Positions 15,222 through 18,594 of a DNA stretch of 64,000 nt are shown here, piece by piece. The notes under the pieces were generated by a model. That model was not told the DNA's origin, ran no database searches, and was given only the letters and a program-made list of their open reading frames with translations. Made by a program: the position numbers and the translations under genes. How positions within the stretch are numbered: the stretch's first letter is position 1; each line of letters starts with the position of its first letter. Source of the stretch: Gammaproteobacteria bacterium (GTDB lineage: Bacteria > Pseudomonadota > Gammaproteobacteria > SZUA-229); contig JAOUKV010000001.1 in NCBI GenBank assembly GCA_029882355.1, forward strand, positions 124,001-188,000. Reading direction: 5' to 3'.

Positions 15222-15994
15222 TCTGTTAACAACTTTTTCACTTGCAATAAATCCTGCCAGGCTTTTCTCTTTTCACTGGGTTTTCGCAATAGGTAGGCGG
15301 GGTGAAAACTTGCGATTAAGGGTATGCCTTCAAAGTTGTGTTGGCGTTCACGCAACAGGCTGATGCTTTCTTCTGAAGCAAGTAAAGCCTGTGAAGCCAT
15401 GGCGCCTACTGCGTAGATCACTTTGGGTTGTATTAATTCAATTTGTCGACGTAGATAGGTATTACAAATTTCTATTTCAGCCGTTAGAGGATCACGTTTA
15501 TCAGGGCTATAACATTTGACGATATTAGTGATATAAACCTCTTCCCTTGGCAAGTCGATGGCTTTTAGCATGGCTGTCAACAGATCCCCTGCCTCACCGA
15601 CAAAAGCTTCAGCTTGCGCATCTTCATCCTGTTTCGGTGCTTCACCTACCACCAACAGGCGTGCATTTTGATTGCCACTGCCAAATATGGCCTGTGAGCG
15701 CGTTACCTGTAATTTACATTTTGTACATTGTTGAACCAGTGATTCAAGCTCCTGCCAGTTACAGGTTGAAGCATCTGTCTGAGCTTCAATCGCTGGTGGA
15801 TTATCTTGAGGTGCTTCTTGTTGAGCCGGGATTTCGACGACAGCTGAAACTTCTTGCTGTACATCCATGGGCATAGCTTCGGGATACAATTCATCCCAAA
15901 CCTGTATACCCATGGTATCCAGATAATATCGCCTTAGTTCTTCGGGCAATTCACAACCATCAGTTTTATCCTGTGGTACTGACAAACTAGACAT
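15218..15994 (-). CDS. Uracil-DNA glycosylase, family 4 (Fe-S type)
   Basis: About 258 residues from ATG 15994, which has AAAGGG close upstream; the frame is open to an ATG at 16024. The family 4 core follows a variable N-terminal extension of about 90 residues. Four Cys are spaced as for the [4Fe-4S] cluster (CTKC, then [10 protein letters not shown] and, 16 residues on, EIC). The active-site motif is GEAPKQDED, followed by FVGEAGDLL, and the C-terminal motif is HPAYLLRKP. It removes uracil from DNA. The start overlaps the leuA stop by 8 bp, so the genes are co-transcribed. Older annotations name this family phage SPO1 DNA polymerase-related protein. Confidence 0.88.
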
Positions 15995-17543
15995 CACCCT
16001 TTTGTGGATGCGCCCTATCATCATTGCGCGTCAATTTATTGAGCGCATTGATATAGGCCTTGGCTGAAGCAATAACAATATCGGTATCAGCGCCCTGTCC
16101 ACTGACAATACGCCCGCCCTTTTCCAGTCTGACGGTGACTTCACCCTGCGCATCAGTGCCGCTGGTGATGGCATTGACCGAATACAGCTGCAATTCGGTT
16201 TCACTGTTAACCACAGACTCAATGGCGCGAAATACCGCGTCCACCGGACCACTACCATCCGATTTTGCCGCTACTTCTTTTTCATCGACACTCAATACCA
16301 ATGAGGCATTGGGTATTTCACCCGTTTCAGAACAGACTTTGAGACTGACTAATTTGAAATTCTCATTTTCTGCCGACAAGTTACTTGCTGCCACCAACGC
16401 CTGAAGATCTTCATCAAAAATCTCGTGTTTTTTATCGGCAAGATCTTTAAAGCGTGAGAAAGTCTCGTTCAGTTCCTGCTCGGAAGAAAAATCGATATTC
16501 AATTCTTTCATGCGTGTTTTAAATGCATTACGACCAGAGTGTTTACCCATGACCATACGGTTAGCTGCCCAACCAACATCCTGAGCACGCATAATTTCGT
16601 AAGTCTCACGGTTTTTCAAAACACCATCCTGATGAATGCCCGATTCATGCGCAAAGGCATTGGCACCAACAATGGCTTTATTTGGCTGTACAGGGAAACC
16701 GGTGATGCTCGATACCATGCGTGAGCAAGTCATGATCTGCGTGGTATCCAATGTGGTATCGCAGTTAAATATATCCTGACGGGTGCGCACAGCCATGACC
16801 ACTTCTTCCAGCGAAGCATTACCAGCGCGTTCACCCAGGCCATTAATCGTGCACTCAACCTGACGTGCACCATTGAGTACCGCCGCCAAAGAATTGCCCA
16901 CGGCCAAGCCCAAATCGTTATGACAATGTACAGAGAAAATCGCCTTGTCTGCGTTAGGAATACGTTCCAGTAAATTTTTGATCAAGTCACCAAACTGGTG
17001 TGGAATGTTGTAACCCACGGTATCAGGAATATTAATCGTAGTAGCACCGGCATCAATCACCGCTTCGATAATACGGCAAAGGAAATCCAGCTCCGAACGT
17101 CCGGCATCTTCCGGCGAGAACTCAACGTCATCAGTCAAACCACGTGCTTGCTTGACCGATCTGACCGCCTGCGCCAAAACATCCTCAGGCTTCATACGCA
17201 ATTTCTTCTCCATATGAATCGGAGAGGTTGCAATGAAAGTATGAATACGAGAAGACTCAGCAGATTTTAGTGCTTCACCGGCACGGGCGATGTCATTCTC
17301 CAGCGCGCGAGCCAAACCACAAACAGTACTATCTTTTATGACACTGGCGACTGCCTGAACCGATTCGAAATCACCCTGACTGGCTATGGGGAAACCTGCT
17401 TCGATAACATCAACACGCATTTTTTCCAGCGCCCTGGCGATACGAACTTTTTCGTCTCGGGTCATGGAAGCACCCGGACTTTGTTCACCATCACGCAAGG
17501 TGGTGTCGAATATAACTAATTTATCTTGATTGTTTTTGCTCAT
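15987..17543 (-). CDS. leuA: 2-isopropylmalate synthase
   Basis: 518 residues of the long (type 1) LeuA. The TIM-barrel start has [14 protein letters not shown], and the divalent-metal ligands include [13 protein letters not shown]. The C-terminal half carries the leucine-binding regulatory domain (about 390-518), which gives feedback inhibition. It condenses acetyl-CoA with 2-oxoisovalerate, the first leucine-specific step, and takes its substrate from the ilvBNC pathway encoded just upstream. The gene is preceded by a leucine-rich leader peptide (17644-17751), which points to transcription attenuation by leucyl-tRNA supply. Confidence 0.96.
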
Positions 17544-17556
17544 GCTCTACTCCGGC

Positions 17557-17588
17557 AAAAAATACTTTGGTCGCTAATATACCAAAAA
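17557..17588 (-). terminator. Candidate attenuator terminator before leuA
   Basis: On the minus strand a short hairpin (TTTGGT at 17586-17581 with ACCAAA at 17571-17566, 9-base loop) is followed by GTA and six T (17562-17557), just upstream of the leuA start. The stem is weak. A second small hairpin with a GTAA loop (TGCC/GGCA) covers the leader stop codon. Which hairpin terminates transcription cannot be settled by eye. Confidence 0.35.
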
Positions 17589-17643
17589 ATGTGCAGAAAA
17601 TAATAAATATGCGTTAGGTCTCGCCAGACTTGATTAATATGCC

Positions 17644-17751
17644 TTACGGCAGGAGCAGTAGTAAAGACAGGTCATGCACAACAGAACACAACGGGCTCAC
17701 GGTAAGCTCGCTGCTGATAGAAAAAACACTTTGTTGTTCTGGAGAGTTCAT
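17644..17751 (-). CDS. leuL: leuA leader peptide (leucine attenuator)
   Basis: A 35-codon reading frame begins at ATG 17751 and ends at TAA 17644-17646, 100 bp before leuA. Its end reads HDLSLLLLLP: five consecutive Leu codons (TTA, CTA, CTG, CTC, CTG), plus another Leu two codons earlier, immediately before the stop. In total 8 of 35 residues are Leu. This is the design of enterobacterial leu leader peptides, where ribosome stalling at Leu codons during leucine shortage prevents terminator formation. It starts 54 bp after the pssA stop. The peptide itself is not expected to have a function. Expression and the terminator remain unproven. Confidence 0.75.
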   Translation of the reverse strand: MNSPEQQSVFSISSELTVSPLCSVVHDLSLLLLLP

Positions 17752-17805
17752 GATTGCGTTTAACTATAACGACTGATTTGATTCTACACAAGCCCTTTGA
17801 GACAA

Positions 17806-18594
17806 TTATTCGGGCGGCCGTTGCGAACGTTTTTTAATCCGACGCAAGACGCTAACTACCGGACCAGATAAGGCATAAATAAGAAAACAGCCAAATAGAA
17901 TCTTGGGTGGATCAATCGATGCCAGTACAAAAATTAGCACGACTACAAACACCGCTATAAAAGGCACTTTGTTTTTGAAGTCGAGATCTTTGAAGCTGTA
18001 ATAGGAAATATTGCTGACCATCAGCAAGCCGGCGATAACAGTCAGCACTAACGCGATTGGTGCAACGTCCTGACCTTTAATACCCTGATCAAAAAATGCC
18101 CAGACCATACCAATAACAACTGCTGCTGCAGCTGGACTTGGTAAGCCCTGAAAATATCGCTTATCGCTACTTCCAACATGGGTATTAAATCTTGCCAATC
18201 TGAGTGCCGCAGCAGCGACATAAATAAAAGCACCCAACCAGCCCAGCTTTCCCCATTGCCAGCCATGGTCAACCAAAGAGGATAAAGACCAGATATACAT
18301 CACCAAAGCAGGCGCAACGCCAAAAGAAACCATATCTGCAAGGCTATCGTATTCAGCACCAAAATCGCTTTGTGTGTTGGTCATGCGTGCTACGCGACCA
18401 TCCAGACCATCAAGAACCATTGCGATAAATATCGCAATCGAGGCCTGTTCAAAACCACCATTCATGGCGGTGACAATGCCGTAGAAACCGGCAAACAATG
18501 CACCCGTAGTTAAAAGATTAGGCAGCAGGTAAACGCCGCGTCTTCTAGGTACCACTACAGATTCTTCAGTTGGGTCTTCTTTTTGGTCATTCAT
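17806..18594 (-). CDS. pssA: CDP-diacylglycerol--serine O-phosphatidyltransferase
   Basis: 262 residues with about seven membrane helices. The CDP-alcohol phosphotransferase signature lies at about residues 62-87: DGLDGRVARMT, then FGAEYDSLADMVSFG, with the conserved Asp and Gly residues. It makes phosphatidylserine, the precursor of phosphatidylethanolamine, in the inner membrane. The ilvC-pssA order is conserved in pseudomonads and relatives. A strong terminator between ilvC and this gene suggests pssA has its own promoter or depends on read-through. Confidence 0.92.
   Translation of the reverse strand: MNDQKEDPTEESVVVPRRRGVYLLPNLLTTGALFAGFYGIVTAMNGGFEQASIAIFIAMVLDGLDGRVARMTNTQSDFGAEYDSLADMVSFGVAPALVMYIWSLSSLVDHGWQWGKLGWLGAFIYVAAAALRLARFNTHVGSSDKRYFQGLPSPAAAAVVIGMVWAFFDQGIKGQDVAPIALVLTVIAGLLMVSNISYYSFKDLDFKNKVPFIAVFVVVLIFVLASIDPPKILFGCFLIYALSGPVVSVLRRIKKRSQRPPE

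Follow-up and report, generated by a model that had tools for sequence, protein, structure and literature searches.

The DNA upstream of leuA in gammaproteobacterial contig JAOUKV010000001.1 (assembly GCA_029882355.1), analyzed here within a stretch of 64,000 nucleotides that we call the window, carries what is apparently an undescribed form of leucine leader that is widespread, contains a pseudoknot and probably acts on leuA translation. We hypothesize that positions 17545 to 17768 (minus strand) form a cis-acting leucine sensor that controls leuA by ribosome-controlled translational attenuation, and we put the probability of this reading slightly above one half (about 0.52). A Leu-rich leader, a pseudoknot and the leuA context are present both at this locus and in its relatives. 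Comparison of those relatives establishes the leader, the hairpin at its stop codon (P1), the pseudoknot, the position before leuA and the spacing of the promoter, and shows that a terminator is not a general feature.

Leader frame and promoter

The minus-strand gene order is ilvB-ilvH-ilvC-pssA-leader-leuA, with families assigned by profile. The leader frame (17644 to 17751, minus strand) opens with an ATG at 17751, closes with a TAA at 17646 to 17644, and encodes the 35-codon peptide MNSPEQQSVFSISSELTVSPLCSVVHDLSLLLLLP, whose homologues in relatives end in LLLP before the stop; it follows the pssA stop (17806) and precedes the leuA ATG (17543). The putatively regulated gene, leuA (15987 to 17543, minus strand), encodes 2-isopropylmalate synthase, as indicated by NCBIfam NF002087 (914 bits, cut-off 729), by TIGR00973 and by PDB 3rmj (E 4e-160).

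Direct reading reproduced the 35-codon frame ending in DLSLLLLLP that an earlier note on this DNA had described, together with its five consecutive leucine codons of four kinds (TTA CTA CTG CTC CTG, 17650 to 17664, minus strand) and its spacing of 100 nt from the leader stop to the leuA ATG. The run is terminal, as claimed, but is one codon away from standing just before the stop, with a single proline codon intervening. The six frames of the window hold 628 ATG frames of 12 to 60 amino acids, and none but the leader frame has 5 or more leucines in its last 7 codons. That it is a chance frame with no regulatory role is scarcely conceivable, as conservation, synteny and covariation all stand against this explanation and no point in its support was found.

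A -10 hexamer, TATAGT (17763 to 17768, minus strand), lies 11 nt before the leader ATG and is preceded, across a 17-nt spacer, by the -35-like hexamer TTGTGT (17786 to 17791, minus strand), which reads TTGGCA in many relatives; these carry tTGGCAa-N17-TATAGT at the equivalent place. A strict promoter scan of 17400 to 17950 detected nothing, the leader promoter included. A TATANT hexamer ends 5 to 12 nt before the in-frame leader ATG in 64 of 116 relatives, where about 0.03 would be expected per sequence, and with this conserved spacing the transcript should start at the leader AUG or a few bases before it. The leader frame is thus predicted from the promoter position to be leaderless or nearly so, with a 5' UTR of a few nucleotides, and would lend itself well to studies of how leaderless initiation serves regulation. 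Some distant members (L144, L151, L152, L154 and others) have -10-like sequences (TATAAT, TACAAT, TATGCT) between the pseudoknot and leuA, 50 to 90 nt before the gene, and a second promoter is possibly present there in some clades.

Conserved hairpin and pseudoknot

Almost all of 30 relatives' loci combine a leader ending in LLLP with a CTGCC-stop-GGCAG hairpin. In the window this hairpin, P1 (17640 to 17651, minus strand), is formed by UGCC and GGCA around a GUAA loop that holds the stop codon. Its stem persists in L010 and L020, whose stop codon lies outside it, and distant members build it from other bases (GCCGC/GCGGC in L181/L186). About 10 nt past the hairpin, most of the 30 loci share CCTGGCGAGG followed by ACGC. 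We considered CCTGGCGAGG as a DNA operator palindrome and rejected this reading, because the compensating change falls downstream, beyond the dyad.

The H-type pseudoknot (17611 to 17629, minus strand) reads GUCU-G-GCG-AGAC-CUAA-CGC in the window, with GUCU and AGAC forming stem 1 and the loop GCG pairing with the downstream CGC to form stem 2. Covariation supports both stems. The outer pair of stem 1 varies by lineage among GC, CG, UA and AU, and stem 2 shows the compensatory change from GGCG/ACGC to GACG/ACGU: a loop A is accompanied by a downstream U in 6 of 6 cases and a loop G by 95 C and 11 U (Fisher p 5e-6, counting sequences as independent). This test took the form of a two-by-two table because MAFFT does not align the variable loop of the pseudoknot. 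G-U intermediates are seen between sister sequences in four lineages (L202/L197, L200/L194, L167/L128 and L125/L114, the second of each pair being the intermediate). Plain folding of 17541 to 17751 gave a stability no greater than that of shuffled sequences (z 0.32), since such folding misses the pseudoknot and the long-range stem.

The pseudoknot spans about 19 to 25 nt, and its inter-stem loop is mostly 4 to 10 nt and often A-rich. It begins 8 to 11 nt after the end of P1 in 82 of 111 members, and the leader stop begins 16 to 18 nt ahead of it in most. A ribosome of standard dimensions positioned at the stop codon would be expected to melt P1 and spare the pseudoknot, which would lie just beyond it. 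This placement, the tight spacing, and the near invariance of the loop G and of the A before CGC, both unpaired, would suit a riboswitch-like arrangement in which a protein or small molecule recognizes the pseudoknot and the leader peptide is a second layer. We consider such an arrangement very unlikely: known aptamers are larger than the pseudoknot, and L023, L024, L025, L028, L030 and the L150 group have the Leu run and P1 without it (in these loci and in L157 and L166, the Leu-rich peptide and the stop hairpin are kept and the pseudoknot is absent). It is quite unlikely, too, that the pseudoknot itself is an active sensor or a ribosome-interacting device that binds a ligand, a protein or the terminating ribosome. 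Were this so, a quarter of sampled gammaproteobacterial genomes would control leuA by a dual peptide-plus-pseudoknot switch that is described in no family.

Distribution of the element

We built a covariance model from the element and used it for family, class and phylum searches. All 22 near-complete genomes examined from the window's family gave a match, as did 88 of 369 genomes of the class, representing 59 of 272 genera, with one copy per genome in nearly all cases and with leuA directly after the element in 81 of 83 fetched class matches. The comparison of relatives proposed in the earlier note therefore came out in favor of its leader peptide, in that a Leu run before leuA recurs across the family and in about a quarter of the class genomes. 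A phylum-wide sample yielded 6 matches in 398, mostly weak. A pattern scan of 85,000 prokaryote genomes returned 42 matches, 41 of them directly upstream of leuA; all 42 lie in metagenome assemblies, and these are Gammaproteobacteria or subgroups of it by name except one labeled only Proteobacteria. The covariance model is usable for genome annotation.

Several individual loci depart from the common layout. Matches L177 and L189 (25 to 27 bits) are not associated with leuA and were judged to be chance. Genome G066 has two copies of the element (L094, L193), each preceding a leuA gene, which may be paralogues or reflect a mixed assembly. At L035 (3935 to 4000, minus strand) the element scores 44.6 bits and precedes a 237-amino-acid open reading frame with an F-box-like stretch; no leuA occurs within the 8 kb examined, and the element looks like one orphaned through loss or replacement of leuA. 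In L210 and L211, which belong to another class of the same phylum, the leader before a distant leuA (29 to 33% identity) ends in LLLP and has the same CTGCC-GTAA-GGCA hairpin but no pseudoknot, so that this hairpin may be older or convergent.

Predicted pairing of the leucine codons with the leuA Shine-Dalgarno sequence

When the pseudoknot bases are held out, folding predicts a base stem between the Leu codons (5' arm CU-A-CUGCUCC, 17652 to 17661, minus strand) and GGAGUAGAG (3' arm, 17545 to 17553, minus strand). The 3' arm includes the leuA Shine-Dalgarno sequence GGAG (17553 to 17550), which lies 6 nt ahead of the leuA start codon. Some complementarity is to be expected between pyrimidine-rich Leu codons and purine-rich Shine-Dalgarno sequences, and we therefore compared the strength of each sequence's own duplex with that of duplexes swapped between sequence clusters. 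Own duplexes were stronger than swapped ones in the discovery set (p 0.0003 to 0.07, varying with the segments chosen), in a second set (p 0.004 to 0.012), and in that second set after removal of the four sequences it shares with the discovery set (held-out p 0.0035 to 0.018). Swaps of Shine-Dalgarno sequence and leader within single families made no difference (28 families, p 0.44), so covariation at close range does not prove the base stem.

We also modeled the effect of a ribosome on the cost of opening the Shine-Dalgarno sequence, holding the pseudoknot out. Averaged over 76 clusters, this cost falls from 6.2 to 4.4 kcal/mol with a ribosome on the Leu codons, and is 6.0 with a footprint 36 nt upstream and 5.5 with the ribosome at the stop. 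Stalling on the Leu codons thus lowers the opening cost by 1.8 kcal/mol versus 0.2 for the upstream footprint (p 2e-6), although the pyrimidine-rich composition of Leu codons accounts for part of this difference. For the window's own sequence, a stalled ribosome brings no modeled release (the cost stays at 4.1 kcal/mol when the pseudoknot is held out, and goes from 4.7 to 6.1 kcal/mol when it is not), six sister species show a release of 4 to 8 kcal/mol, and in clades such as those of L047, L051 and L060 the Shine-Dalgarno sequence is almost unpaired whatever the state. Taken together, we regard the base stem as moderately supported. From the four kinds of codon in the Leu run, the earlier note suggested that the sensor may read several leucyl-tRNA isoacceptors; alternatively, pairing with the Shine-Dalgarno sequence may be what limits the choice of codons.

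Proposed mechanism and alternatives at the level of transcription

In the mechanism we propose, the dedicated promoter would give rise to an RNA starting a few bases before the leader AUG, and a ribosome would translate the leader at once and arrive at its terminal Leu run. When leucyl-tRNA is scarce, the ribosome would stall on the run and cover it, leaving the Shine-Dalgarno sequence unpaired and free for translation of leuA. When leucine is plentiful, it would read through the run and leave at the stop codon, whereupon the vacated Leu codons would pair with the Shine-Dalgarno sequence in the base stem and leuA translation would fall. P1 and the H-type pseudoknot, enclosed by the base stem, would bring its two arms together by compacting the RNA. 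In this scheme, stalling on the Leu run, the direction and level of control, and what the pseudoknot contributes are inferred.

The earlier note had taken the Leu-rich leader as the classical sign of transcription attenuation. The conserved leucine leader peptide for leuA stands, but the classical mechanism and its terminator found no support, and the mutually exclusive hairpins and T-run terminator that the note pointed to were not what comparison revealed: the conserved structures are P1 and the pseudoknot, which are able to coexist, and a scan of 17400 to 17950 found no terminator-like site or T-run terminator between the leader and leuA. Terminator-like hairpins near a T run occur in 15 of 112 relatives versus 3.2 expected from shuffles, mostly with poor T tails and none of them conserved, and no intrinsic terminator was found here or generally across relatives. 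The window does contain a weak TTTGGT/ACCAAA hairpin followed by GTATTTTTT (approximately 17586 to 17557, minus strand), which is present in most of the genus, absent from L003, and too weak for a standard terminator. Attenuation by an intrinsic terminator and antiterminator, as in the enteric leu operon, could draw on this hairpin, on the excess among relatives and on the Leu-rich leader directly before leuA. Set against the empty scan, the unconserved hairpins and the nature of the conserved structures, it seems very doubtful, all the more as the Rfam model of the enteric attenuator, RF00512 (Leu_leader), does not match the locus and exceeds its cut-off in none of the 369 sampled class genomes, about a quarter of which have the present element.

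The lack of an intrinsic terminator, in the window scan and across the 112 relatives, is compatible with Rho-dependent attenuation, which remains the main rival. Here a stalled ribosome or the folded leader would gate the access of Rho past the pseudoknot, with a C-rich, G-poor stretch as its target, and an ample supply of leucine would make the transcript end short of leuA. The 35 nt that follow the pseudoknot do have more C than G (0.244 versus 0.130), with C exceeding G in 85% of members, but this bias is modest, the same stretch is A-rich (0.35) and it has no conserved sequence. Rho-dependent termination would also leave the between-lineage match of Leu run and Shine-Dalgarno sequence unexplained, and we consider it unlikely. 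Of these readings, translational attenuation of leuA accounts for most of the observations.

Comparison with known leucine leaders

Textbooks describe leucine attenuation from enteric bacteria. The likeness of the present element to RF00512 lies in a leader peptide with Leu codons before leuA; RF00512 is a terminator-type attenuator, whereas the present element has no terminator that is conserved. Neither the window's leader nor any of 20 diverse members matched an Rfam family, and we found no description of the element in the open-access literature, although an earlier partial description may exist. The Shewanella leuA attenuator, also gammaproteobacterial, has a leader peptide, alternative hairpins, and terminator and antiterminator stems (PMC2659441). 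It shares the leuA leader peptide with the element described here, from which its terminator/antiterminator pair is absent.

Among described systems, the LEU element found upstream of leuA in Actinobacteria comes closest. It has a Leu-rich leader, a pseudoknot, and a base stem in which the Leu run pairs with the leuA Shine-Dalgarno sequence (Seliverstov et al. 2005, PMC1262725). Both systems have a Leu leader peptide and a conserved pseudoknot, which here differs in sequence and form; the predicted base stem would be a further likeness. The actinobacterial leaders L204 and L206 look leaderless, much like the near-leaderless leader predicted here. The covariance model (R1) has no match in actinobacterial leuA leaders L204, L206, L207 and L208 at E 10, and in place of CCUGGCGAGG followed by ACGC these leaders enclose a long GCCGCGACG/CGUCGCGGC helix together with a hairpin at the stop codon; their leuA is itself a distant form (about 26% identity for L204). 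With no model match and a different core helix, the likeness is architectural, and homology is not shown. Mutations in the Streptomyces coelicolor leuA leader did not fit the predictions of classical attenuation, as the authors noted (PMC1262725), and since leuA there has the analogous LEU element, these data count against the reading proposed here.

In the erm-type attenuators (ermC/ermB), ribosome stalling on a leader frame frees a sequestered Shine-Dalgarno sequence (PMC10219788). That stall is induced by an antibiotic, whereas here a shortage of leucyl-tRNA would induce it and, unlike in the erm-type systems, the sensing codons themselves would act as the anti-Shine-Dalgarno sequence. Alongside the actinobacterial LEU element, this would be a second and apparently convergent example of codons that both sense an amino acid and serve as an anti-Shine-Dalgarno sequence.
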